NCBI RefSeq assembly: GCF_024281235.1
Contig: NZ_JAHWXY010000001.1
Location: 372,001 to 436,000, forward strand
Source of the DNA: Shinella daejeonensis
GTDB lineage: Bacteria; Pseudomonadota; Alphaproteobacteria; Rhizobiales; Rhizobiaceae
Direction of reading: 5' to 3'
Length of the DNA: 64,000 nt
Position numbers and translations under genes: made by a program. Below, piece after piece: positions 1,047 through 49,973 of the stretch. The notes beneath the pieces are model-generated. The model was not told the DNA's origin and did not search any database. It saw only the letters and a list, made by a program, of their open reading frames with translations. The first letter of the stretch is position 1. The number at the start of each line of letters is the position of its first letter.

Positions 1047-1808
1047 TCAGCTTTTCAGCTTATATCCCGTCTTGAAGATCCATGCCGTCACCGACAGGCA
1101 GGCGACGAGGAAACCGACGACGATCGCCAGGCTCACGGCCGGATTGACGTCGGCGATCTCGTAGAAGCTCCAGCGGAAGCCCGAGACCAGATAGAGCACC
1201 GGATTGAAGTGGCTCACCGTCTGCCAGAACGGCGGCAGCATGTTGATCGAATAGAAGCTGCCGCCGAGGAAGACCAGCGGCGGGATGACGAGCATCGGGA
1301 AAATGTTCAACTGCTCGAAATCCTTCGCCCAGATGCCGATCATGAAGCCGAACAGGCTGAAGGTCACGGCGGTCAGCACGAAGAACAGCGCCATCAGGAA
1401 CGGATGCGCGATGGAGATGTCGACGAAGGCCGAGGCGGTCAGCAGGATGATCGTGCCGACGATCAGCCCCTTCGTCGCCGCCGCGCCGACATAGCCGATG
1501 AGGATCTCGGCCGTCGAAATCGGCGAAGAAAGGATCTCATAGATCGTGCCGGTGAATTTCGGGAAATAGATGCCGAAGGAGCCATTGCCGATGCACTGGT
1601 TGAGCAACGTCAGCATGATGAGCCCCGGCGCGATGAAAGCGCCGTAGGAGATGCCGTCGACTTCCTGCATGCGCGACCCGATCGCCGCGCCGAAGACGAT
1701 GAAATAGAGCGAGGTGGTGATGACCGGCGAAACGACGCTCTGCAACAGCGTCCGGCGCATGCGCGCCATTTCAAACAGATAGATGGCCCGGACGCCTTCG
1801 ATGTTCAT
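1047..1808 (-). CDS. ABC-2 type transporter permease
   Basis: A 253-residue integral membrane protein of the ABC-2 (YadH/NodJ-like) permease family, with about six hydrophobic segments spread along its length and the family features near the N-terminus ([22 protein letters not shown]) and centre ([19 protein letters not shown]). It is the membrane half of an exporter whose ATPase is encoded directly upstream; the start codon overlaps the ATPase stop by four bases (ATGA at 1805-1808), so the subunits are translated together. Substrate cannot be read from sequence; relatives export lipids, polysaccharides or drugs. Confidence 0.93.
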
Positions 1809-2731
1809 CTATCTTCTCCCACCAGTTCCACGAAAATATCCTCCAGCGAGCTTTGCTCGGTGGAGACGTCCCTTACCCTCAGTCCCGCCTGCGACAGCGC
1901 CGACAGCAGGGAGGAGATCCCGGTGCGCTCGCCGGTCGTGCTGAATTCGTAGACGAGCCTTTCGCCCGTCCCGGCAAGCGCCAGCCCGAAGGGCGCAAGC
2001 GACGGCGGGATGGCCGCCAGCGGCTCCGCCAGTTCCACGGTGAGCTGCTTGCGGCCGAGCTTGGTCATCAGCGCCTTCTTGTCCTCGACGAGCAGGATCC
2101 GGCCGCCGTTGATCACACCGATCCGGTCGGCGATCTCCTCGGCTTCCTCGATATAATGGGTCGTCAGGATGATGGTGACGCCGGCAGCGCGAAGCCGCTC
2201 GACGAGTTGCCACATGTCCTTGCGCAGGCTGACGTCGACGCCCGCCGTCGGTTCGTCGAGGAACAGCACCTTCGGCTCGTAGGACAGCGCCTTGGCGATC
2301 AGCACGCGCCGGCGCATGCCGCCGGAAAGATGGCGCAGCATCGTGTCCTTCTTGTCGTAGAGCGACAGGTCCTTGAGGATGCGCTCGATCAGCGCCGGAT
2401 CGGGCTTGCGCCCGTGCAGTCCGCGCGAGAAGGAAACCGTGCTCCAGACCGTCTCGAAGGAATCGAGCGTCAATTCCTGCGGCACCAGACCGATGATCGA
2501 GCGCGTCTTGCGGTAATCGGCGAGGATATCGTGTCCCGCGACGGTCACGGTCCCGCCCGACGGCGTGACGATGCCGCAGATGATCGAGATCATCGTCGTC
2601 TTGCCCGCGCCATTGGGGCCGAGAAGCGCGAGGATCTCGCCCTCCTCGATATCGAGATCGACGCCTTTCAGCGCCGTAAACCCCGTCGCGTAGCGTTTGG
2701 TGAGATTGCGAATGGAAACGATGGGCGCCAT
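1805..2731 (-). CDS. ABC transporter ATP-binding protein (YadG/CcmA-like)
   Basis: A 308-residue ABC ATPase. Walker A is GPNGAGKTT (38-46), signature LSGGM (135-139), Walker B KVLFLDEP (154-161), then TTH as the switch histidine. The roughly 90 residues after the ATPase core form the C-terminal extension usual for export ATPases of the CcmA/YadG type. It precedes and overlaps the ABC-2 permease, forming a two-gene exporter operon on the minus strand. Fewer than 100 bases separate its start from the next minus-strand gene, leaving room for a promoter at about 2735-2800. Confidence 0.95.
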
Positions 2732-2824
2732 GGGATGGTCCGGAATTGAGGGGCGTTCACAGGGAAGGACACCCTATATGGCGCATCCCCTGACGATTTT
2801 CACCTGCCGGAGCGAAAAATGCGC

Positions 2825-3646
2825 TCAGGTATAGATGCTGAAGAGAAAACGCGCCGCCACGAAGATCAGGAAGACGCCGAATCCCACTTCAAGTTGCCGC
2901 TTGCTCAGCGAATGCGCCAGCCGCACGCCGAGCGGCGTGACGACGAGGGCGATAGGAATGATCAGCGCCACGGCGACCCAGTTGATGAACCCGGTGGAAA
3001 AGGGCGGCAGGCCGGGCAGGCCCCAGCCGGCCCACATATAGCCGAGGATGCCGGGAATGGAGATCAGCACGCCGACGCCGGAAGACGTCGCCACCGCCTG
3101 GTGGATCGGCCGGCCGAAGGACGTCATATAGGTATTGTTCAGCACGCCGCCGCCGATCCCCATCAGGCCGGACAGCGTTCCGATCACCACGCCTGCGAAC
3201 TGGCTGGCGATGCCGGTCGGCAATTCGTCGCCGACACGCCAGCTGTCGCGGTTGAACAGCATACGCACGGCGACCAGCAGCGCGATGGACACAAAGACAA
3301 GGCGAAGCCCGATGCTGGAGATCATCGCCGCGATGACGGAAGCGAGGATCGCCCCCAGCGGCAATGCGACGATCCAGCTCTTCAGCAGCGCCACGTCCAC
3401 GGCCCCGCGCTTGCGATGCGAGGTGAAGGAACGGATCGAGGTCGGAACGATGATGGCGATCGAAGTGCCGACGGAAAGATGCATCCGCACCGCCTCCGGC
3501 ACGTCCAGATAGCCGAAAACCTGATAAAAGACCGGCACCAGAACCGCCCCGCCGCCAATTCCGAAGATTCCGGCCAGCAGACCGGAGACGACGCCGGCCG
3601 CAACGAGCGCCAGGGCGAACAGGGCAAGGTCTGCGATGGGTGGCAT
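2825..3646 (-). CDS. TauE/SafE (TSUP) family permease
   Basis: A 273-residue polytopic membrane protein with repeated glycine-rich turns (GLLAGIFGIGGGAVLVPVF near the N-terminus and LSGLMGIGGGVLNN in the second half), the internally duplicated signature of the sulfite/organosulfonate exporter TauE/SafE family (PF01925). Members move sulfite, sulfoacetate or related small anions; the substrate here is not evident. The ATG at 3646 is selected because GAGGAA lies eight bases upstream; longer in-frame starts up to 3805 add an unlikely soluble leader. A second TSUP gene is at 41556-42377. Confidence 0.9.
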   Translation of the reverse strand: MPPIADLALFALALVAAGVVSGLLAGIFGIGGGAVLVPVFYQVFGYLDVPEAVRMHLSVGTSIAIIVPTSIRSFTSHRKRGAVDVALLKSWIVALPLGAILASVIAAMISSIGLRLVFVSIALLVAVRMLFNRDSWRVGDELPTGIASQFAGVVIGTLSGLMGIGGGVLNNTYMTSFGRPIHQAVATSSGVGVLISIPGILGYMWAGWGLPGLPPFSTGFINWVAVALIIPIALVVTPLGVRLAHSLSKRQLEVGFGVFLIFVAARFLFSIYT

Positions 3647-3921
3647 GGAGACGTTCCTCGGTACAAACGGGGGATAGCGATTCGCGCTGACGCTGCGACG
3701 GGCCGCAACTGTCATCAAGCCGTGACACTTTTCAACCATTGTCCGGCCGAGGCCATGATGGAAACCGCAACTTTCCGCCAGTCCGGAGCCCCCCTGCCCC
3801 GGCACGGCCGGCCTTCTCCCGTCTCAGGCGGGAGCCTTGCAACGCCTGTGGCCAGTCACCGGGTCCCGGGCGCGGAATGTGACATTCCACGGCGGCGGCG
3901 CTCCTGCCCCGTCGCTTTTTT

Positions 3922-3950
3922 GGCCGGCGTCCCCCGCCGGCCCTTTTTTT
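3922..3950 (+). terminator. Intrinsic terminator on the plus strand without an assigned gene
   Basis: Perfect 8-bp arms GGCCGGCG (3922-3929) and CGCCGGCC (3935-3942) around a 5-base loop are followed by C and seven T residues (3944-3950). The U-tract fits plus-strand transcription only; read on the minus strand the hairpin is followed by A residues, so it does not serve the extensin-like gene that ends at 4019. The rest of the 372-base gap 3647-4018 contains the promoter region of the TSUP gene and no coding frame I can support. A small RNA ending here is possible. Confidence 0.6.
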
Positions 3951-4018
3951 GCCCGATCGTCAGGGGAGCGCGGACACCTGCATTTACGGGGGCGTTTTGC
4001 AGGCTCCCGCTCCGGCGC

Positions 4019-5116
4019 TCACAGGCTGCAATGCCGGTAGCCGGACTTGCGAACGCGCAGGTCGAAATGAAAATGGTCCTTGTGATAGCGATCGCTGCCC
4101 GGCCCGAGCACGGTGGAGAAATATTTGCAGCTGTCGCCACGCACCGATTTCAGCAGGCCCTTTTCGCGAAAGGCGAAGAAGCCCTTCGGCTCGATGGCGA
4201 TGGCCTTGCCGTTCTTCAGCACGATCTTTCCGACATCGATGGCGTTCCCCCGGGCGTGTTCCGACATGGCCGCGCCGCGCCGGGAGTTCATCGTCCGGCA
4301 GGAATAGGAGGACATCTGGTGAACGGCCGCGACGCCGGAGAGATAGCGCACGCGCGTGGACGGCACGAGTTCCTGCTTCACCCAGCGGGCGAACGCCTCG
4401 GTGATCTGGCAGTTCACCTGCGCGGCCGGCTTGATCTCGATGCCGCCGGCAAGTCCGGAAAGCTCCACGGGCCAGTCGATACCGCAGGATTTCCCCCGCG
4501 AGATGCGCGGCACGTCGCGGTAGCGAACCCCGAGCTTTTGCAGCCGGAGCCGGCAGGCCTTTTCCGCCGCCGGCATGCCGCCGGAACTTTCGGGCGTCTG
4601 CATGGGACTGGAAGCGCGGGGCAGGAAAGCGATTTTCTGCTCGCCGCCGGTCATTGCCGGAGCGCGCTCGCCCATCTCCGGCATGGGCAGCGAGCCGATC
4701 TGCCGGGGCGAATCGGTGCCGATCCCGCCAACGACCACCTGCGTCGCCTCGCCTTCGGCGATTTCGGCGGCCTGCGCCTCGGCGAGCCCCTGTACCCGCC
4801 CCACGCCGAGCCCCTCGTCCATATTGACGCCGCCTTCGGGGATCGCCAGCCCGCCGGCGGAATCCCCTGCCGGCTGGCCGATGGCCATCGCCTCCTCGCT
4901 GTCGATCATCGGCAGGGCCTGGCGCGGCGCGGCCGTCTCAGCGGGAGGCGTGTCGATTCGCGGCCCGTCGCTATGCGCAGGCCGGATCGCACCGACGCCG
5001 ACGCCGTCGATATCGTCGGGCGGAACGAAAGAGCCGCCCGAACAGGCGACCAGTATTGCCGGGAAAACAAGCAGCCCGAGCGTTCTGCGCAGGCGGAAAA
5101 CAGACGCGATACCCAT
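4019..5116 (-). CDS. Extensin-like C-terminal domain lipoprotein
   Basis: A protein of 365 residues. The N-terminus is a lipoprotein signal (RLRRTLGLLVFPAILVAC with lipobox LVAC at about residue 25), so the mature protein should be membrane-anchored. Residues 30-180 are low-complexity Ala/Gly/Pro/Glu linker. The C-terminal ~180 residues match the extensin-like domain (PF06904): conserved cysteines, SEHARGNAIDVG near residue 287 and HKDHFHFDL near 345, a His/Asp pattern like that of LAS/VanY-type metallopeptidases, so a peptidoglycan hydrolase role is plausible but unproven. The start at 5116 has GAAGGAAC just upstream. Confidence 0.88.
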   Translation of the reverse strand: MGIASVFRLRRTLGLLVFPAILVACSGGSFVPPDDIDGVGVGAIRPAHSDGPRIDTPPAETAAPRQALPMIDSEEAMAIGQPAGDSAGGLAIPEGGVNMDEGLGVGRVQGLAEAQAAEIAEGEATQVVVGGIGTDSPRQIGSLPMPEMGERAPAMTGGEQKIAFLPRASSPMQTPESSGGMPAAEKACRLRLQKLGVRYRDVPRISRGKSCGIDWPVELSGLAGGIEIKPAAQVNCQITEAFARWVKQELVPSTRVRYLSGVAAVHQMSSYSCRTMNSRRGAAMSEHARGNAIDVGKIVLKNGKAIAIEPKGFFAFREKGLLKSVRGDSCKYFSTVLGPGSDRYHKDHFHFDLRVRKSGYRHCSL

Positions 5117-11224: not shown

Positions 11225-11362
11225 CCGGTCACCTGTATCGTCTTCGTTCCGGTCTTGCCCACACCTAGCCGCCCGAGGGGCGGGCATCAAGGGTGAAGCG
11301 GCGCAAGTTTCGGCCGCCGAGGCGACGAAATTGTGGTCGCGCGGCGGCCGTGCACAGGAAGA

Positions 11363-12466
11363 TCACTCGGCCGCCTGCGCCGCCGGCCGGGCGGAAAGGA
11401 CGGCGTCGAAAGCGGCATGGATCACCTCCGGCCCCGCGCCGGGCCGCGTCGCCTCCGTCGAAAGGATCTGCCGGTAGCGCCGCGCGCCGGGAAATCCCTG
11501 GAAAAGCCCGATCATGTGGCGCGTCACATTCGCCACCCGCCCCCCTTCGGCCATCACCTCCGCGGCATGGGTGGCCATGGCGTCCCGGACCGCCTCCCAG
11601 CGGGAAGCCGGCAGGCTGCGCGGATCGCCCGGCAATCCGGCGGAAACGAAGGCTTGCGGTTGCAGCGGATGGGGGAAAAGCCCGTCCACCCCGGTCAAAA
11701 GCCCGCTATCCTGATAGGCGGCCCGCCCGAGCATGACGCCGTCGAGGCCTTCCATCGCGGCCACCGCTTGACTCAACGTATGAAGCCCGCCGTTCAGCCC
11801 TATGAAAAGTCCGGGATTTTCCGCTTTCACCTGGCGAACGAGACCATAGTCGAGCGGCGGAATATCGCGGTTTTCCTTCGGCGAAAGCCCCTGTAGCCAG
11901 GCCTTTCGCGCATGCACCCAGACCGCATCCGCTCCGGCGGCGGCGACCCGGGAGACAAGCGCGCGCAACGCGACCTCCGGCTCCTGGTCGTCGACGCCGA
12001 TCCGGCACTTGACGGTGACGGGTATGGACACCGCCGCCCGCATCGCCGCCACGCATCTGGCGACCGTTTCCGGTTCGAGCATCAGGCAGGCGCCGAACGT
12101 ACCGGATTGCACCCGGTCCGAGGGACATCCCACATTGAGGTTGATCTCGTCGTATCCGAACCCGGCTCCGATCCGCGCCGCCTCGGCAAGCTTTTGCGGG
12201 TCGCTGCCGCCGAGCTGGAGGGCGACGGGATGTTCCGCCGGACGACAGCCGAGCAGCCGCTCCCGATTGCCCCGCAGGATAGCGTCGGCGACGATCATTT
12301 CGGTATAGAGCAGCGCGTTTTTCGTGAGCTGGCGCGCGAAATAACGGTAGCGGGAATCGGACCAGTCGATCATCGGCGCGGTGGCGAAGATCTTCGTCCC
12401 GCCGCTCACGGCGCGGTGATAGAATGTGTTGCGCGACGTCTGCATCATGGGCGGCACATACTCCAT
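11363..12466 (-). CDS. dusA: tRNA-dihydrouridine synthase A
   Basis: DusA reduces uridines in the D-loop of tRNA using FMN and NADPH. Family motifs are present: ATAPMIDWSDSRYR at the N-terminus of the barrel, LLYTEMIVADAI, EINLNVGCPSDRVQSGTFGACLM with the catalytic cysteine in GCPS, KCRIGVDD and VHARKAWLQGLSPKENR. Length, about 367 residues, is usual. The start is uncertain: ATG 12466 is used here; GTG 12484 and ATG 12448 are in the same frame and none has an outstanding ribosome site. Downstream on the same strand is the J-domain gene, 138 bases away. Confidence 0.94.
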   Translation of the reverse strand: MEYVPPMMQTSRNTFYHRAVSGGTKIFATAPMIDWSDSRYRYFARQLTKNALLYTEMIVADAILRGNRERLLGCRPAEHPVALQLGGSDPQKLAEAARIGAGFGYDEINLNVGCPSDRVQSGTFGACLMLEPETVARCVAAMRAAVSIPVTVKCRIGVDDQEPEVALRALVSRVAAAGADAVWVHARKAWLQGLSPKENRDIPPLDYGLVRQVKAENPGLFIGLNGGLHTLSQAVAAMEGLDGVMLGRAAYQDSGLLTGVDGLFPHPLQPQAFVSAGLPGDPRSLPASRWEAVRDAMATHAAEVMAEGGRVANVTRHMIGLFQGFPGARRYRQILSTEATRPGAGPEVIHAAFDAVLSARPAAQAAE

Positions 12467-12556
12467 CCTGACTGCGAAAACCACCCTTGCGCCTTGCCCC
12501 GGACCGCAGGTCGCATGCTAAGGTCCGGAATCAACGCCTCTTGCGGAGTTTCGCCC

Positions 12557-13087
12557 ATGCCGCTCTATATGCTCGACGACATTGCACCGACGCTGCCGCC
12601 GGAAGGCCGCTACTGGATCGCGCCGGACGCCCATGTCATCGGCCGGGTCGTTCTCGGCGAGGATGTCGGCATCTGGTTCGGGGCGGTGCTGCGCGGCGAC
12701 AATGAACCGATCGTCGTCGGCGCCCGCTCGAACATCCAGGAAGGCGTGGTCGTTCACACCGACCCCGGAAAACCCGTCACCATCGGCGAAGGCTGCACCA
12801 TCGGCCACCGCGCCATCATCCATGGCTGCACCATCGGCGACAATTCGCTGATCGGCATGGGCGCGACCGTGTTGAACGGCGCGGAAATCGGCAGGAACTG
12901 CCTCGTCGGCGCCAATGCGCTGGTGACGGAAGGCAAGGTCTTTCCCGACAATTCCCTGATCGTCGGAGCGCCGGCCAGGGCCATCCGCCAGCTCGACGAG
13001 GCGGCCGTCGAGGCATTGCGCCAGTCGGCGGAAAGCTACGTGCGCAACTGGCAACGCTTTTCCGGCGGAATGAAGCGGATCGACTGA
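12557..13087 (+). CDS. Gamma-class carbonic anhydrase family protein
   Basis: A 176-residue left-handed beta-helix protein built of hexapeptide turns (IGEGCTIGHRAIIHG, IGDNSLIGMGATVLNG, IGRNCLVGANALV). The three zinc-ligand histidines expected for gamma carbonic anhydrases are at about H67, H84 and H89. Relatives are called YrdA or PaaY-like; hydration of CO2 is possible but often undetectable in this subgroup. The start at 12557 follows GCGGAG. It converges with zur, whose stop lies eight bases beyond its own stop. Confidence 0.93.
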   Translation: MPLYMLDDIAPTLPPEGRYWIAPDAHVIGRVVLGEDVGIWFGAVLRGDNEPIVVGARSNIQEGVVVHTDPGKPVTIGEGCTIGHRAIIHGCTIGDNSLIGMGATVLNGAEIGRNCLVGANALVTEGKVFPDNSLIVGAPARAIRQLDEAAVEALRQSAESYVRNWQRFSGGMKRID

Positions 13088-13094
13088 TCCGCCG

Positions 13095-13490
13095 TCAGGC
13101 GCATCCCGCGCACTGGCCGCGGATCTCGATCGTCGTCTTGTCGGTCTTGAAGTTCCGGGCGCGGGCAAAGCCCTTCAGCCGTTCCTCCAGCACATGATCG
13201 TGGAACTCCGTCACCTGGCCGCAGGTTTCGCAGATGATGAAGGCGGTCACGCCATGAGCATGGCAGTCTTCCTCCGGATGCGCGCAGGCCACGAAGGCGC
13301 TGATGCTTTCCAGCCGGTGCACGATGCCGATTTCCAGAAGCTTGTCCAGCGCCCGATAGACCTGCAACGGAGCGCGAAATCCGTCCCCCCGCAACTTGTC
13401 GAGGATCGTATAGGCGCTGAGCGGCGCTTCCGCTTCGCTCAGCACGTCGAAGACCAGCGCCTGATTGCGCGTGAGCCGATGTGTGGTCAT
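13095..13490 (-). CDS. zur: Zur, zinc uptake regulator (Fur family)
   Basis: A 131-residue Fur-family repressor. The N-terminal winged helix (RNQALVFDVLSEAEAPLSAY...VYRALDKL) is followed by the metal-sensing half with HPEEDCHAHG, the structural zinc pairs CETC and CAGC (the last four-residue group at the extreme C-terminus). The short length and its position as last gene of the znuCB operon point to Zur and not to Fur, Mur or Irr. With zinc bound it should repress znuA and znuCB through the boxes in the divergent promoter region. Its ATG overlaps the znuB stop (ATGA). Confidence 0.93.
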   Translation of the reverse strand: MTTHRLTRNQALVFDVLSEAEAPLSAYTILDKLRGDGFRAPLQVYRALDKLLEIGIVHRLESISAFVACAHPEEDCHAHGVTAFIICETCGQVTEFHDHVLEERLKGFARARNFKTDKTTIEIRGQCAGCA

Positions 13491-14317
13491 GCCCGACCTC
13501 CCTGGCTGGTTCCGGACTGGTCCGCCACCCGCGTTCCCGCTTTCGAAACGAGGCTTGCGATGAACAGCGCAAGCGCTGCGACGACGATGGACGGGCCGGA
13601 AGGCGTATCGAATTTCAGCGAGCCGAACAGCCCGCCCGCGACCGCGAGCGCGCCGATCACCGAGGCGGCGGTGGCCATGGTTTCGGGACTACGCGCGAAA
13701 CGGCGCGCGGTGGCTGCCGGAATGATGAGCAGCGACGTGATGAGCAGGATGCCGACGATCTTCATGGCAATAGCGATGACAAGCGCCATCAGCAGCATGA
13801 AGGCAAGCCGCGCCTTCTCCGGCTCCAGCCCTTCGGCCGCCGCCAGTTCCGGATTGACGGTCGAGGCCACCAGCGGCCGCCACAGGCGGATGACGGCGAA
13901 AAGCACGAGAATGCCGCCGCCCCAGACGAGTTGCACATCGGCCAGGCTGACGGCGAGAATATCGCCGAAGAGAAAGCCGACGAGGTCGATGCGCACCCAC
14001 GTCATGAAGGAAACGATGACGAGGCCGACGGCGAGCGTGGCATGCGAGAGAATGCCGAGCAACGCGTCGGTGGACAGAGTTCCCCGTTTCTGGAGAAGGA
14101 GCAGCAGCAGCGATACCGCCGTGGCGACGGCGAAGACGCTCAGCGTCAGGTTCAATTCCATCAGCAGCGACAGGGCGACGCCGAGAAGCGCCGAATGGGC
14201 CATCGTATCGCCGAAATAGGCCATCCGCCGCCAGACCACGAAACAGCCGAGCGGCCCGACCGTGAGCGCCAGTCCTATGCCTGCGGCAAGCGCCCGTATG
14301 AAGAAATCGTCAAACAT
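13487..14317 (-). CDS. znuB: ZnuB, zinc ABC transporter permease
   Basis: The 276-residue membrane subunit of the high-affinity zinc importer ZnuABC. It has seven to eight hydrophobic segments of the ABC-3 family, with FVVWRRMAYFGDTMAHSALLGVALS near the N-terminus and KIVGILLITSLLIIPAATAR towards the C-terminus, both strong family signatures. Its start overlaps the znuC 3' end by eight bases and its stop overlaps the zur start, so znuC-znuB-zur form a tight operon. Confidence 0.96.
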   Translation of the reverse strand: MFDDFFIRALAAGIGLALTVGPLGCFVVWRRMAYFGDTMAHSALLGVALSLLMELNLTLSVFAVATAVSLLLLLLQKRGTLSTDALLGILSHATLAVGLVIVSFMTWVRIDLVGFLFGDILAVSLADVQLVWGGGILVLFAVIRLWRPLVASTVNPELAAAEGLEPEKARLAFMLLMALVIAIAMKIVGILLITSLLIIPAATARRFARSPETMATAASVIGALAVAGGLFGSLKFDTPSGPSIVVAALALFIASLVSKAGTRVADQSGTSQGGRA

Positions 14318-29592: not shown

Positions 29593-30540
29593 TCACGCCT
29601 TCCGGAAATCCGCAAGGCTGCGCTTGATGTTCCAGCGGTCGTGATACCACAGCCACTGACCCGGATATTCCCGCACCCATTGCTCGACCTTGTCGTTGAG
29701 AAGCTGCGCGGTCGCCTCGACGTCGACGCTGCCGTTGTCACGGCGGGGGATCGTCAGGGCCGGTTCCAGTTCCAGCCGGTAACGGTTGCCCGGCAGGCGG
29801 ATGCAACGGGCCGGATAGACCTCGCAGCCGAACTGCCGCACCAGCTTGGCAAGCAGCGGGTTGGTCTGCACCTCGCGCCCGAAGAACGTCGTATGCAGCC
29901 CCTTGTTGAACTTCTGGTCGACCAGAACGCCGACCGGGCCGCCCGCCTCCAGCTTGCGCGCCAGCGTGAAGGAGGAGCCCGCATGCGAAGGCACCAGATG
30001 GCCCATGCGCTGGCGGCGGAACTCGAAGACCTTCTCGGCGATATAGGGATTGTTCGGCGGCCGGAACAGCACCGTCACAGAAAGCCCGAAGGCGGCGCCG
30101 GCGACAGGCAGGATCTCGAAATTCCCGGTATGGGCCGTAAAGACGATGAAGGGTCGCGGATTGTCGCGCAGATCCATGAAAAGCGGGATGCCGGCGACTT
30201 CCACGCGGCCGGGAGCCGGACGCTCGGGATCGAAGTCGAACAACCGGTCGAGGAAGACATATTCGGCGGCAAGCCGGCCCATGTTGCCCCAGGACTCCAG
30301 CGCGATCGCCTCCAGCTCCGCCTCCGGCTTGTCCGGAAAGGCGTTGCGCAGGTTGGTGAGCATCAGCCCGTGCCGCCGGGTCTTCGGGCCGATGCGGCGG
30401 GCGAAGCGGTCGGCGAAATTGAGCGCCCCGTCGGCGGGAAAGAGCTTCAGCAGGTTGAGCAGGCCGAAAGCGAATTGCGCCACGAGCCACTGCTTGGTTT
30501 TCCTCAGCGCCAGAACGAGGCGTGTGACGAACATCCGCAA
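29593..30540 (-). CDS. lpxXL: LpxXL, lipid A very-long-chain acyltransferase
   Basis: A 315-residue HtrB/LpxL-family acyltransferase with an N-terminal hydrophobic segment and the catalytic HX4E motif in FTAHTGNFEILP (about residue 137), plus RQRMGHLVPSHAGS and VGVLVDQKFNKGL typical of the family. In rhizobia the homologue at this position transfers 27-hydroxyoctacosanoate from AcpXL to lipid A. It is the last gene of the acpXL cluster, four bases after adh2XL, and it converges with the hemerythrin gene. Confidence 0.93.
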   Translation of the reverse strand: MRMFVTRLVLALRKTKQWLVAQFAFGLLNLLKLFPADGALNFADRFARRIGPKTRRHGLMLTNLRNAFPDKPEAELEAIALESWGNMGRLAAEYVFLDRLFDFDPERPAPGRVEVAGIPLFMDLRDNPRPFIVFTAHTGNFEILPVAGAAFGLSVTVLFRPPNNPYIAEKVFEFRRQRMGHLVPSHAGSSFTLARKLEAGGPVGVLVDQKFNKGLHTTFFGREVQTNPLLAKLVRQFGCEVYPARCIRLPGNRYRLELEPALTIPRRDNGSVDVEATAQLLNDKVEQWVREYPGQWLWYHDRWNIKRSLADFRKA

Positions 30541-30544
30541 GGCG

Positions 30545-31573
30545 TCAATCCAGCTTCAGGACGATCTTGCCGAAGACCTGGCGGGTTTCCATCCGTTCCA
30601 GCGCCGTGGCGATACCGTCGAAGGTCACTTCCGTGTCGATGACCGGCGAAACCAGGCCGCGCGCCATCTTCTGCATGGCGTTCGCCATGTTTTCCATCCG
30701 GCAGCCGAAGGAGCCGAAGAGCTTCAATTGCTGCTGGAACAGCATCATCAGGTTCATCTCTGTCGAGACGCCCGACGTGGAGCCGCAGGTGACGAGCCGC
30801 CCTCCCCGCTTCAGGCACAGCATCGAGCCCGCCCAGGTATCCTTGCCGACATGTTCGAAGACGACGTCGACGCCCTTCTTCTTCGTCAGCTTGCGCACCA
30901 CGCCTTCGAAACGGTCCTCGCGGTAATTGATGACATGGTCCGCGCCCAGCGCCTTCGCCTTCTCGACCTTGTCGTTCGAACCGACCGTGGTGATGACGGT
31001 GCAGCCGATTTTCTTCGCAAGCTGGATCGCCGCCGTGCCGATGCCGGAGCCGCCGGCGTGGACGAGGATCGTCTCGCCGGGTTCGAGCCTCGCGTTGTCG
31101 AACAGCATATGCTCGACGGTGCCGAAGGTGACGGGCGCCACCGCCGCGCCGACCGCATCGACGCCGGGCGGGGCCGGCACCAGCAGCCGGGCCGGAAGGT
31201 TCACCTTCTCCTGCGCGAAACCGTCGAGATGAAAGCCGTGCACCCCGCCGACGTGCTCGCAGAGATTGTCCCGGCCCTCGCGGCAGGCCTTGCAGAGACC
31301 GCAGGTGCGCGCGCCATAGATCGAGACCAGCTGGCCCGGCAGCACATTGGAAACGCCCGGACCGAGCGTCTCGACCACGCCGGACGCTTCCGCGCCGATG
31401 ACCAGCGGCATCTTGCGCTTGGCGAACGCCATGCCGCGCCAGCCCCAGACATCGATATGATTGAGGGCGACGGCCTTGACGCGCAGCGTCACCTCGCCGG
31501 GGCCGGGTGCGTCCGGTTCGGGAATGTCGGTGAGTTCAAGCTTGCGGTCGTCGAGAAGCTGGAGGGCGCGCAT
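30545..31573 (-). CDS. adh2XL: Zinc-type alcohol dehydrogenase of the acpXL cluster
   Basis: A 342-residue medium-chain dehydrogenase/reductase. The N-terminal catalytic domain includes GAEASGVVETLG and the structural zinc cysteines in CGLCKACREGRDNLC; the coenzyme domain starts with VHAGGSGIGTAAIQLAKKIG. In the rhizobial acpXL clusters this gene is called adh2XL and is thought to take part in making or modifying the hydroxylated very-long acyl chain; the exact reaction is not established. Same strand, 13 bases after fabF1XL. Confidence 0.92.
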   Translation of the reverse strand: MRALQLLDDRKLELTDIPEPDAPGPGEVTLRVKAVALNHIDVWGWRGMAFAKRKMPLVIGAEASGVVETLGPGVSNVLPGQLVSIYGARTCGLCKACREGRDNLCEHVGGVHGFHLDGFAQEKVNLPARLLVPAPPGVDAVGAAVAPVTFGTVEHMLFDNARLEPGETILVHAGGSGIGTAAIQLAKKIGCTVITTVGSNDKVEKAKALGADHVINYREDRFEGVVRKLTKKKGVDVVFEHVGKDTWAGSMLCLKRGGRLVTCGSTSGVSTEMNLMMLFQQQLKLFGSFGCRMENMANAMQKMARGLVSPVIDTEVTFDGIATALERMETRQVFGKIVLKLD

Positions 31574-31586
31574 GGCTACTTTCCTG

Positions 31587-32873
31587 TCAGGCGGGTTCCG
31601 CCGTCATCACGAGGCTGGCGTTCTGGCCGCCGAAGCCGAAGGAGTTGGACAGAACCGCCGTCACCGGCGCATCGCGCTTCACGTTCGCTACGACGTCGAG
31701 AACGATGGCAGGATCGGGGTTCTGGTAATTGATCGTCGGGGGCAAGGTGCCGGTCAGCATGGTCTGGATCGAGAACACCGCCTCGACCGCGCCGGCCGCC
31801 GTCAGCGTATGGCCGATCATCGACTTGTTGGACGAGACCGGAATATCCGCCAGCGCCTCGCCGAAAACCGTCGACATGGAGAGATACTCCATCTTGTCGT
31901 TTTCCGGCGTCGACGTGCCGTGGGCGTTGATATAGCCGATGCCGCTCTCGTCGATGCCGGCGTCTTCCAGCGCCGCGCGGATCGTCGCGATGGCCGGGCC
32001 GCCGTCCGGCGAGGAGCGGGTGCGATGGAAGTGATCGGCCTTCTCGCCGCACCCCTTCAGGATGCCGAGCACGCGGGCGCCGCGGGCAACCGCCGATTCC
32101 AGCGATTCCAGCACCAGCGTCGCCGCCCCTTCCGCGATGACGAAGCCGTCGCGATCCTTGCTGAACGGCTTCGACGCCTTCTCCGGCGGATCGTTCTGGG
32201 TGGAGAGCGCGGACAAAAGCGCAAAGCGGATCAGCGCCTCCGCCGTCACGGAACCGTCGGTTCCGACCGTCAGGGCCCGGTCGGTGCGCCCCTGGCGGAT
32301 CGCCTCCACGCCAAGCTGGATGGCGGTGGCGCCGGAGGCGCAGGCCGTCGAGAGCGTGACCGGCAGGCCACGCGTGCCGTAGCGATCGGAAAGCCGTTCG
32401 GAAATCGCGCCGAAGGCCCAGGCCTCGTGCAGCTTCGGATCGGGATTTTCCCGCAGCACGGCAAAGAACCGGTCATAGGCGTCGCCCGGCCGCTGCGAGG
32501 GAGCGGCGCGGTCGGCAAGCGCGAAACGGTCGCGCCAGTCCGGCTCGATCGGCGGCGCGGCGAGGAAAAGCGGTCCGCCGAATTCACCGGCAAGGCCGGC
32601 CTGCGCCAGCGCCTCGTCCGTCGTCTCGCGGGCATAGGCATAGGAGCGTTCGACGGGATTTTCGACGGGAACCCCGATAAAATCGACCATGCCGGAAATG
32701 CGGGTGTTCAACCCGTCGACCGGAAAGCGGGTGATGCCGTGGATCCCGGAGACGCCGCCGGTGAGCGCGGCCCAGTTATCCTCGACCCCCTGCCCCAGCG
32801 AGGTGACGACCCCCATGCCGGTGACGGCGACGATGGGACGACCGAGATGATCCCTGAAAGCGGATTTCGTCAT
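31587..32873 (-). CDS. fabF1XL: FabF1XL, beta-ketoacyl-ACP synthase (catalytically intact)
   Basis: A 428-residue condensing enzyme that should extend the acyl chain on AcpXL. The catalytic triad is complete: C178 in LSTACASG, H318 in INAHGTSTPEND and H355 in NKSMIGHTLTAAG. The start at 32873 is supported by position 10 bases after fabF2XL and by ITKSAF...IVAVTGMGVVTSLG aligning with the family N-terminus after a short leader. It is placed beside a second ketosynthase homologue that lacks all three residues, suggesting a working heterodimer. Confidence 0.94.
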   Translation of the reverse strand: MTKSAFRDHLGRPIVAVTGMGVVTSLGQGVEDNWAALTGGVSGIHGITRFPVDGLNTRISGMVDFIGVPVENPVERSYAYARETTDEALAQAGLAGEFGGPLFLAAPPIEPDWRDRFALADRAAPSQRPGDAYDRFFAVLRENPDPKLHEAWAFGAISERLSDRYGTRGLPVTLSTACASGATAIQLGVEAIRQGRTDRALTVGTDGSVTAEALIRFALLSALSTQNDPPEKASKPFSKDRDGFVIAEGAATLVLESLESAVARGARVLGILKGCGEKADHFHRTRSSPDGGPAIATIRAALEDAGIDESGIGYINAHGTSTPENDKMEYLSMSTVFGEALADIPVSSNKSMIGHTLTAAGAVEAVFSIQTMLTGTLPPTINYQNPDPAIVLDVVANVKRDAPVTAVLSNSFGFGGQNASLVMTAEPA

Positions 32874-32883
32874 GGCCGGAACC

Positions 32884-34086
32884 TCACGTCTCTGCCGAAA
32901 GGATGGCGAGGCCCTCGCCGCGCGCATGGCCGACGGTCGTGACCACCGCCGTCGTGGCGGGGCCGGGCATCGGCGTCTCGGCATGGGCATCGAAAGGCGG
33001 AACGGGCTGGCCGTTGCCGAGCGCCAGCGCCGCCAGCGCCAGGCCCAGCGGAAATTGCGCCTCCAGCGCCTGCCCCGTGACGGCGCTGTAGCCGCGCAGC
33101 GCACTGCCGGCGAAGCGCCCGCCGGCCCAGGCTTTTTCCCGCGCCGTCAGGTCGTGCGCGCCGGATGCGCCGGAAAAGACGACGGTTCCCGCCGGATCCG
33201 CGTCGAGATCGCCGGCAAGCCGGTCGAGCCGCGCTTCCAGCCGGCCCGCCTCGCGATTGCCGCGATCGCCGCCGATGGCGTCGATCGTCGCATAGATGCG
33301 CGCACCCCGCGCCTCGGCGTTCTGACGGGATTCCAGCACCAGGAAAGCGGCGGCCGACCCGGTAATGATGCCGCCGCCAGCACTTTCGTCACGCGACCAC
33401 AAGGGCGTCCAGCCGCCGGTCGCATGGGCGCTGATGGCCTCGTAGAGAAGGATGACGTCCTGCCGTTCCGCCACAAGCGCGCTGCCGACGAGCGTATGCG
33501 TCGACTGGCCGGCGCGAATCCGGTGAAAGGCGGTTTCCACGGCGCTGATGCCGGCGGCTTCCTCTCCCATGAAGGTGCGGGAAGAACCGGTGACCTTATG
33601 CACGATGGAAATATTGCCGGCGAGAAGATTGGAAAGCTGCGCGAGGAACAGCGTCGGCCGCAGTTCGGTCGTCAGTTTCTCGTTCAGCAGCCGCTCGCGG
33701 TCATTGCGCTTCAACGCCTCGTCGACGATCAGCGAATCGACCGCGATATCGCGTTCGCCGCCGCCCGCCGCCACGATCATGTCCATCGAGCCGCAGGCGT
33801 CCGCATCGTCCTTGAACCCGGCGTCGTCAAGCGCGAGCCCCGCGGTGAAGACGCCGAGACGCTGCCAGTTTTCCATCTGCCGCTGGTCGCCGCGCCTGGC
33901 GATCTGCTCGCTCCAGTCGATCGCCGGCAGCGGATGCACCGGATAGGGCGAAAAGCGTTCGGTATCGATCTTCAGCACCGGCGCGTCGGCAGCCGAAAGC
34001 ATGGCGGCATGCGCCCCGGCTCCGACGCCCTGACAGCTCACGATCCCGATGCCGGTGATCACCACGTCGTTGCCTGCCCTGGTCAT
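32884..34086 (-). CDS. fabF2XL: FabF2XL, ketosynthase homologue without the catalytic triad
   Basis: A 400-residue thiolase-fold protein in frame throughout and clearly related to FabF (VVITGIGIVSCQGVG start; SSRTFMGEEAAGISAVETAFHRIRAG in the nucleophile region). By eye, the catalytic cysteine position holds Glu176, the NAHGT histidine is lost (FSGASGAHD) and the second histidine is Gln (YSAVTGQALEAQ). It can hardly condense chains by itself. By analogy with the chain-length factor of type II polyketide synthases, it may pair with FabF1XL and set the C26-C28 chain length; this is inference. Tight spacing to fabZXL (2 bases) and fabF1XL. Confidence 0.9.
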   Translation of the reverse strand: MTRAGNDVVITGIGIVSCQGVGAGAHAAMLSAADAPVLKIDTERFSPYPVHPLPAIDWSEQIARRGDQRQMENWQRLGVFTAGLALDDAGFKDDADACGSMDMIVAAGGGERDIAVDSLIVDEALKRNDRERLLNEKLTTELRPTLFLAQLSNLLAGNISIVHKVTGSSRTFMGEEAAGISAVETAFHRIRAGQSTHTLVGSALVAERQDVILLYEAISAHATGGWTPLWSRDESAGGGIITGSAAAFLVLESRQNAEARGARIYATIDAIGGDRGNREAGRLEARLDRLAGDLDADPAGTVVFSGASGAHDLTAREKAWAGGRFAGSALRGYSAVTGQALEAQFPLGLALAALALGNGQPVPPFDAHAETPMPGPATTAVVTTVGHARGEGLAILSAET

Positions 34087-34088
34087 GG

Positions 34089-34571
34089 TCAATTCTCCCC
34101 GGCCGTCGCGGCCAGCGCATCGAGCAATCCGACCTCGTCGGCACGCTTGCGCACGATCGCCGCCAGCGGCACTTCCGCGAAAGGCATGGTGCGCAGCTTC
34201 AGCTGCGCGTCGCAGACCTTCTTGCCCGCAGACGAGATTTTCGCCTTCGTCACCGCATAGCCCGATCCGTCGTGCTCCAGCACCGCTTCGATGTCGAGCA
34301 CCGCATCGGGTTCGACGAAGGCGCGCATCTTGGCCCCGTCGACGCTCATCAGGAACGGCATGGCGGCGAAATCGCTTGCCGCGAGCACGAGAAAGCCCGA
34401 GGCCTGCGCCATGGTTTCGATCAGCAGGACGCCGGGAACGAGCGGCATGCCGGGGAAATGTCCCTCGAAGACCGGGCTTTCCGCCGGCACGACCGAGCGG
34501 GCCTTCAGCACGCGGCGCGCGCCATCGACGGCCTCCACACGATCGATCATCTGGAAATATTCTAGCAGCAT
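34089..34571 (-). CDS. fabZXL: FabZXL, 3-hydroxyacyl-ACP dehydratase homologue
   Basis: A 160-residue hotdog-fold protein with the FabZ active-site segment FEGHFPGMPLVPGVLLIETMAQASG (catalytic His in GHFPG, Glu in IETMAQ). In this cluster it should dehydrate 3-hydroxyacyl-AcpXL during very-long-chain elongation. The start at 34571 is the only good ATG. It follows acpXL after a 122-base gap that contains two hairpins, and its stop is two bases before the fabF2XL start. Confidence 0.94.
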   Translation of the reverse strand: MLLEYFQMIDRVEAVDGARRVLKARSVVPAESPVFEGHFPGMPLVPGVLLIETMAQASGFLVLAASDFAAMPFLMSVDGAKMRAFVEPDAVLDIEAVLEHDGSGYAVTKAKISSAGKKVCDAQLKLRTMPFAEVPLAAIVRKRADEVGLLDALAATAGEN

Positions 34572-34693: not shown

Positions 34694-34972
34694 TCAGGCC
34701 TTGGCGGCCCTGAGTTCGTCGATCTTGGCGCAAAGGTTCTTCAGGACGAAATATTCCTCCGTCCCCACCTTGCCTTCATTGACTTCCTGGGTCCACTGTT
34801 CCAGCGGAATCTTGATGCCGAATTCCTTGTCGATCGCAAAGACGATATCGAGAAAATCAAGACTGTCGATACCGAGATCGTCGATCGTGTGGCTATCGGG
34901 CGCGATCGTCCCGCGATCGATCTCGCTCGTCTCGGCGATAATGTCGGCAACCTTGTCGAATGTAGCAGTCAC
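34694..34972 (-). CDS. acpXL: AcpXL, acyl carrier protein for very-long-chain acylation of lipid A
   Basis: A 92-residue acyl carrier protein with the phosphopantetheine serine in [12 protein letters not shown] (Ser37 when counted from the GTG start). The C-terminal part is longer than in fatty-acid ACP, and the sequence [14 protein letters not shown] and [22 protein letters not shown] is diagnostic for AcpXL. The start is taken as GTG 34972: GAGGT lies seven bases before it, and it yields the MTATFDKV N-terminus known for the family. The ATG at 34978, two codons earlier, almost touches the ribosome site. Confidence 0.95.
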
Positions 34973-35004
34973 GCCCATACCTCATAAATCTTCAGTCGGG
35001 CGAT

Positions 35005-49472: not shown

Positions 49473-49524
49473 GACAACCTCCGTGCTGGCAGCGGGATTC
49501 CTCCCGGGCGGGCGACATGCCCTT

Positions 49525-49870
49525 CAGCGGATGGCAGGTTTCCTGGCTCGTGGTTTCAGGCGGTCTCACGCCTGCGGGATATTCTCGCCTTCCCGGGATC
49601 TGTTACATGACGAAAGGCGGACGATTCGTAGAAAAAGAGGCGTCCAGCCCGGCTCATCGCCATGTCCCCAGTGGCTTTTCCGCTGGCTGCGAGCCCTGCC
49701 CCGGGAAAGCACGATTGCTTCTTTCGAACGGGGCCCCCTGCCAGCCGGATGAATGTCCCTCGCCACTCTACAGTCGCGGGGTCGGCCGTGATTACGATGC
49801 CCTGCATGGGTCCATCGCGTCACATTCCCATTTACTCCCCGTTCCGTCTCCGGCCCGGGGAACCATCCAA
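49525..49870 (-). promoter_or_regulatory. Cobalamin (B12) riboswitch controlling cbtBA-cobPWNO
   Basis: Read on the minus strand, the 5' leader of cbtB carries the conserved blocks of the adenosylcobalamin riboswitch in order: GGTTCCCC near 49864, GGGGAGTAAATGGGAA near 49830, CCCGCGACTGTAGA near 49775, GCCACTG (49675-49669), CCCGGGAAGGCG near 49595, and the B12-box AGCCAGGAAACCTGCC (49548-49533). The 3' end lies about 55 bases before the cbtB ATG, where an expression platform could block translation. Within the 501-base gap 49473-49973, the remaining part (49871-49973) is the 3' side of the next gene and holds nothing clear. Confidence 0.93.
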
Positions 49871-49973
49871 CTCATCGATGAATATGCCTCGCATGAGACG
49901 GTGTCAATGAGCCGGCAGCGGCACGGGCTTTGTCGAAACCGCCAGTCCTCGGCCTCGCCGATAACCGGACCTG

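Follow-up and report, generated by a model that had tools for sequence, protein, structure and literature searches.

The closest described counterparts of the proteins considered here are ketosynthase (KS) systems in which an intact subunit is joined by an inactive one. In type II polyketide synthases (PKSs), including the actinorhodin KS-CLF (1TQY), the gene for an inactive subunit of ketosynthase fold, the chain-length factor (CLF), adjoins that for an intact KS with its own acyl carrier protein (ACP), and the CLF has replacements at the catalytic Cys and first His. In PUFA synthases, the KS-CLF didomain of PfaC likewise brings an inactive KS partner to long fatty acid synthesis. FabF (KAS II), by comparison, is a catalytic homodimer whose interface is built from a helix, strand and elbow that also line the partner's acyl tunnel. 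KS-CLF pairs are additionally described in reducing, FAS-like pathways, namely ApeO-ApeC of aryl polyene synthesis and Iga11-Iga12 of ishigamide synthesis, and the available passages report that the ApeO-ApeC cavity is lined by both subunits (PMC8358021).

Here we compare these systems with FabF1XL and FabF2XL of Shinella daejeonensis, which are encoded in the window, by which we mean the whole stretch of 64,000 nucleotides that was analysed. FabF2XL shares with FabF its fold and homology across the N-terminal half but lacks the catalytic triad, and it shares with type II PKS CLFs the replacement of Cys and first His and a gene position next to that of an intact KS which has an ACP of its own. 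Several features set it apart from the CLFs: the nucleophile position holds Glu rather than the Gln of two annotated Streptomyces CLFs, the second His is mostly retained where those two proteins have Arg, the Lys that they keep is lost, and the gatekeeper segment exceeds that of FabF and CLFs by about 12 residues. The FabF2XL operon serves reduced lipid-A fatty acids, whereas type II PKSs make polyketides, and the two groups form no secure common clade. ApeO-ApeC and Iga11-Iga12 yield polyenes, in contrast to saturated C26-C30 acids, a likeness drawn without an alignment of ApeC or Iga12; PfaC, likened by description, consists of type I megasynthase domains, unlike the discrete FabF1XL and FabF2XL. 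With a probability of roughly 0.6, we propose that FabF1XL and FabF2XL form a heterodimer of KS-CLF type in which FabF2XL is the obligate, non-catalytic member. This heterodimer would carry out condensation in the AcpXL pathway. Two published papers, in the passages available, and the NCBI family alike call both FabF proteins ketosynthases, and the published passages that name FabF2XL and FabF1XL describe FabF2XL neither as inactive nor as a chain-length factor. No paper combining acpXL with 'chain length factor' was found in a search made mostly without subscription literature, which leaves absence from print unproven.

In the window annotation, the operon lies on the minus strand in the order acpXL, fabZXL, fabF2XL, fabF1XL, adh, lpxXL (Table 1). 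The fabF2XL frame (34086-32884) is open throughout its 400 codons, with 2 bases separating it from the fabZXL stop and 10 bases between its end and the fabF1XL ATG at 32873; fabZXL scores under the cut-offs of the FabZ models. Elsewhere in the window, cobalamin-synthesis-like ORFs (named by eye) are present at about 36.7-41.5 kb, and a cobalamin riboswitch at 49516-49882 (minus strand, 51.5 bits).

Table 1. Features of the acpXL cluster in the window (positions are those of the window).
Feature	Position	Strand	Basis
acpXL, acyl carrier protein for very-long-chain fatty acids	34694..34978	-	NCBIfam NF005079, 184.9 bits, cut-off 83
fabZXL, 3-hydroxyacyl-ACP dehydratase	34089..34571	-	Pfam FabA-like domain, 66.1 bits
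fabF2XL, non-catalytic ketosynthase paralogue, 400 aa	32884..34086	-	NF005084, catalytic positions, fold model
GERD turn, FabF2XL residues 110-113	33748..33759	-	alignment
FabF2XL residues 142-178, helix, strand and elbow; presumed dimer interface	33553..33663	-	conservation peak
GEE, FabF2XL residues 174-176; Glu176 replaces the nucleophilic Cys	33559..33567	-	alignment
Gly306 of FabF2XL, replaces the first catalytic His	33169..33171	-	alignment
Gln339 of FabF2XL, replaces the second catalytic His	33070..33072	-	alignment; His in most relatives
fabF1XL, intact ketosynthase, 428 aa	31587..32873	-	NF005076, 749.3 bits, cut-off 629
adh2XL-type zinc-binding dehydrogenase	30545..31573	-	Pfam ADH domains; same position in 79/80 loci
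lpxXL, lipid A very-long-chain acyltransferase	29593..30540	-	NF005120, 486.6 bits, cut-off 273

Alignment of the Shinella FabF2XL with E. coli FabF pairs Glu176 with Cys163, Gly306 with His303, Ser334 with Lys335 and Gln339 with His340. The first-pass annotation had read a Glu at the nucleophile by eye and a Cys-His-His triad lost from this protein beside an intact FabF1XL, and for the window copy the alignment confirms each of these points; FabF1XL has C178, H318 and H355, together with K350 and an FGFGG motif. An intact triad elsewhere in FabF2XL was considered and rejected: a His lies five residues past Gly306 but is missing in several relatives, for example those at L025-L027. At the gating Phe400 position, a His of the CLF kind was dropped as evidence because it proved alignment-dependent, being found in 12 of 19 FabF2XL rows of one alignment as against 3 of 126 in a larger one, where the corresponding column falls beside that His. 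The GFGG gating loop was unrecognisable in all 19 FabF2XL rows of the smaller alignment.

The wider comparison began from 128 loci, comprising the window (L001), relatives L005-L032, the 80 kept out of 587 relatives from a capped genome scan and a class-wide sample (L114-L132). L115 duplicates the window and L132 falls outside the family; without these two, 126 FabF2XL with 120 distinct core sequences remained. The sample leans to Rhizobiaceae. As its sequences are related, the counts that follow are not independent. The nucleophile position is Glu in 126/126, as is Glu175. At the first His position there are 119 Gly, 4 Ala, 2 Ser and one gap (L130, a locus cut by a contig end), and Lys is retained in none of the 126 (one gap). 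The second His position is less uniform, with His in 95, Gln in 29, Thr in one and one gap; when sequences are grouped into 70 clusters under 90% identity, the nucleophile position is Glu in all 70 and the second His position is His in 58, Gln in 10, Thr in one and a gap in one. The family as a whole has lost Cys, first His and Lys, and replacement of the second His by Gln is confined to Shinella plus a few scattered members. The earlier claim that all three triad residues are gone therefore holds for the window copy and fails for the family, which keeps the second His in 95 of 126 members; likewise, the loss of both catalytic His, an uncertain mark of CLFs, describes the window copy but not the family. 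Other CLF-like rows vary at this position, with Asp in L180 and His in an Apilactobacillus protein labelled CLF here. By comparison, FabF1XL, recovered at 125 loci, retains Cys, first His and Lys in 125/125 and the second His in 124, the exceptions being two cut loci, L130 (no FabF1XL) and L073 (second His missing from the sequence). The closest plasmid-collection match of the window's FabF1XL is that of Shinella sp. PSBB067 (92.8%).

Profile searches agree with these residue patterns in separating FabF2XL from catalytic FabF. The protein scores 589.4 bits on NCBIfam NF005084 (PRK06519; cut-off 320) and 81.3 bits on the FabF model, far under the cut-off of 493.75, so that by both triad and score it falls outside FabF (beta-ketoacyl-ACP synthase II). 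Because the examined members lack the Cys and first His, the name beta-ketoacyl-ACP synthase given to NF005084 probably misleads annotation. An active site with Glu176 might support some other chemistry, such as decarboxylation of malonyl-AcpXL in the manner of KSQ, and the invariance of this Glu and the second His retained in most members speak for such a role. KSQ activity, however, requires Gln with both His; FabF2XL has Glu without exception, the first His and Lys are missing in all 125 members reaching these positions, and the gating loop is unrecognisable in the 19 rows aligned, all of which make another catalytic function very unlikely.

The order acpXL-fabZXL-fabF2XL-fabF1XL is found in 80/80 genome-scan loci, so that fabF2XL adjoins an intact KS and an ACP gene throughout, and adh-lpxXL follows in 79, the remaining locus (L073) being cut. 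Since these loci were found via FabF2XL itself, they cannot reveal its loss elsewhere, and a search with AcpXL is the fairer check. Among 385 alphaproteobacterial genomes, FabF2XL was above cut-off in 18, AcpXL in 18 and both in 17, and a contig end truncates the locus in both non-shared genomes (G383 and G271). FabF1XL adjoins FabF2XL in 17 of those 18 genomes, the eighteenth (L130) being cut, and the two genes are neighbours in all fetched loci that no contig end interrupts. FabF2XL does not occur throughout the order: a search of 41 genomes gave a clear copy (E 1e-96 or better) in 29, weak matches in 9 and none in 3. Median dN/dS is 0.130 for FabF2XL vs 0.071 for FabF1XL (170/171 same-genus pairs from 19 genomes, with L006 and L013 excluded, one pair outside the dS limits and the pairs not independent). 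As an observation on copy number, genome G035 carries on contig C77 (L183, about 1674-4932 and 11285-13804) two FabF2XL-FabF1XL pairs some 9.5 kb apart; the lower-coordinate pair has its own acpXL and fabZXL, and its FabF2XL-like protein, the second and shorter copy of this genome, has KGEE at the nucleophile, again with Glu at that position.

The active site of FabF2XL is dismantled while its frame stays under purifying selection. The first-pass view of a full-length, non-decaying gene is upheld by its 400 residues, tight spacing and dN/dS, and a decaying pseudogene is excluded by the family-wide residue pattern, the gene order in 80/80 loci and the dN/dS of 0.130. A relic on its way out, kept merely through its position in the operon, might be suspected from the faster evolution of FabF2XL relative to FabF1XL and from its divergent C-terminal half, but purifying selection, presence in every scanned cluster, invariant motifs and the loss of very-long-chain fatty acid (VLCFA) in a published mutant make this hardly credible.

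Where the constraint falls within FabF2XL suggests what it is maintained for. Residues 142-178, which we take by homology to be the segment that holds the dimer interface in FabF, have a mean conservation of 0.934 vs 0.653 elsewhere and rank first of 364 equal-length windows (computed from 53 representatives sharing less than 85% identity, with L130 excluded); the average for the C-terminal part (273-400) is 0.579. Conservation thus appears to peak at the presumed partner-facing segment, a mapping that rests on FabF homology. The matching columns of FabF1XL average 0.753, and among 25-residue windows of that protein variability is greatest at 123-147. Residues 108-178 of FabF1XL (window 32340-32552, minus strand) differ from FabF at the interface helix, a sign that the interface may be altered, and this segment is also 11-15 residues longer. 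In fact, both proteins carry 11-15 additional residues just ahead of the nucleophile: the distance from the equivalent of FabF I108 to the nucleophile is 66-70 residues in 126/126 FabF2XL (67 in 121 of them) and in 121/125 FabF1XL (those with the anchor pattern found). The same segment is 55 residues long in E. coli FabF, two FabF-like proteins of the same genome, the two annotated Streptomyces CLFs, the actinorhodin CLF and two further proteins labelled CLF-like here, and 53 to 61, with one at 69, in other ketosynthases. These features bear on an accessory role, in which a FabF1XL homodimer would do the work and FabF2XL would dock or stabilise, for example as a holder of FabZXL or of long chains bound to AcpXL. 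The sequence of FabF1XL is that of a complete ketosynthase and the heterodimer is a proposed one, which leaves some room for such a role; yet conservation of FabF2XL is highest at the segment matching the FabF dimer interface, and FabF1XL differs from FabF at the equivalent helix, so we regard it as unlikely.

Structural modelling and phylogeny place FabF2XL among ketosynthase-fold proteins but settle little about its origin. The FabF2XL monomer model (pLDDT 80.6, pTM 0.83) has a complete ketosynthase fold, with residues 110-115 and 141-146 below pLDDT 50, whereas that of FabF1XL (pLDDT 44.4) is unusable. In Foldseek searches FabF ranked at the top, 6kxd_A (ishigamide) ninth and 1tqy_B (actinorhodin CLF) twenty-third, and FabF was also the best profile match and best single-sequence match; the model superposes on FabF with a TM of about 0.65-0.70 and rmsd of about 7-9 A, and on that account supports the fold and no residue-level claim. 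With Glu in 126/126 and a fold matching both FabF and 1tqy_B, FabF2XL combines a ketosynthase fold with loss of the catalytic Cys, as CLFs do. In quick trees, FabF2XL and FabF1XL each form one clade at 100, FabF2XL on a long branch. In the 51-row tree a branch (support 91, not starred) has FabF2XL on the same side as three CLF rows, and a joint FabF1XL+FabF2XL clade is not rejected with that set (p-AU 0.52); in the 54-row tree FabF2XL stands apart from all other groups, and long branches meet. Descent from CLFs and local duplication followed by CLF-like change are thus two candidate origins, neither of which the trees favour securely.

Genetic evidence comes from related bacteria. According to the available passages, a fabF2XL insertion mutant of A. 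fabrum C58 lacks VLCFA in its lipid A, and fabF2XL supplied alone in trans restores it partially (PMC11901934). Since fabF1XL lies downstream in the same transcription unit, polarity may contribute to the defect, but partial rescue by fabF2XL alone argues that fabF2XL itself is needed. For Bradyrhizobium ORS278, the accessible text records that disruption of either fabF gene was attempted without success (PMC5613085). Together with the dismantled site, purifying selection, gene pairing, conservation of the interface segment and paired enlargements, the Agrobacterium mutant underlies the proposed FabF1XL-FabF2XL heterodimer. In this heterodimer, FabF1XL would contribute the sole Cys-His-His site, while FabF2XL would complete the dimer interface and line a portion of the acyl tunnel, allowing acyl-AcpXL to be extended to C26-C30. 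We infer from these lines of evidence the heterodimer, the lining of its tunnel and any role in setting chain length. Several points weigh against it: the interface is mapped by homology to FabF, with two stretches of the FabF2XL model (110-115 and 141-146) of low confidence, the second His is kept in 95/126 members where two annotated Streptomyces CLFs have Arg, the tree places FabF2XL securely with neither CLFs nor FabF1XL, and the Agrobacterium phenotype may reflect a possible polar effect on fabF1XL, complementation being partial. The likening of this gene layout to KS/CLF pairs in the first-pass annotation accordingly survives in part, carried by a dismantled but maintained paralogue beside an intact KS, a conserved, presumably partner-facing segment and the requirement in Agrobacterium.

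That annotation also suggested that FabF2XL acts as a C28 ruler, a role that is plausible by analogy with CLFs. In its strict form, FabF2XL would close the distal end of the acyl tunnel in the heterodimer and fix the product at C28, as a CLF fixes polyketide length. The GERD turn (110-113) is invariant in 126/126 FabF2XL and is followed by the lengthened segment, and we take its position to be that of the chain-length gatekeeper in the actinorhodin CLF, where residues whose substitution alters polyketide length lie in the segment before the nucleophile. That substitutions in a CLF can have this effect is set out in passages of a published source (PMC12664062). For Shinella daejeonensis itself, a C28 product is inferred from relatives, and the available passages on these describe more than one length: wild-type Agrobacterium makes the C28 acid plus some C30, and in an adhlA2XL-complemented strain C26:0-(25OH) replaces the minor C30:0-(29OH) (PMC11901934), from which enzyme balance may shift chain length. 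In Bradyrhizobium ORS278, C26 and C30 arise from one cluster (PMC5613085), which is weak evidence against a ruler because its authors expect that an additional enzyme takes C26 to C30. FabF1XL, AcpXL, LpxXL and enzyme ratios may also affect length. The Agrobacterium and Bradyrhizobium lengths fit a tunnel permitting very long chains better than one counting to 28, and we treat the strict ruler as a tentative possibility that we do not favour. In the literature searched, nothing was found on how the acpXL cluster sets VLCFA length, and nothing useful on the origin of the (omega-1)-hydroxyl among the matches listed.

A more speculative variant, which we consider doubtful, is that FabF1XL-FabF2XL is an independently shaped KS-CLF pair serving ordinary saturated fatty acids, with a polar far end of the tunnel that would read the (omega-1)-hydroxyl, such that only hydroxylated chains would reach C26-C30. 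The conserved charged residues of FabF2XL (GERD turn, Asp117, Arg143, Arg170 and Glu175-Glu176), with the paired 11-15 residue enlargements, would form this tunnel end, and the hydroxyl would have to be present before elongation finishes.

In rhizobia and their relatives, the outer membrane is stiffened by the C26-C30 acid that the acpXL cluster produces. Assignment of FabF2XL as a non-catalytic partner would change what has to be co-expressed when the pathway is rebuilt, and would turn the question of chain length into a direct test on one protein pair. If true, the FabF1XL-FabF2XL heterodimer would carry the KS-CLF principle from polyketide synthases to a discrete type II fatty acid pathway that supplies a membrane lipid.
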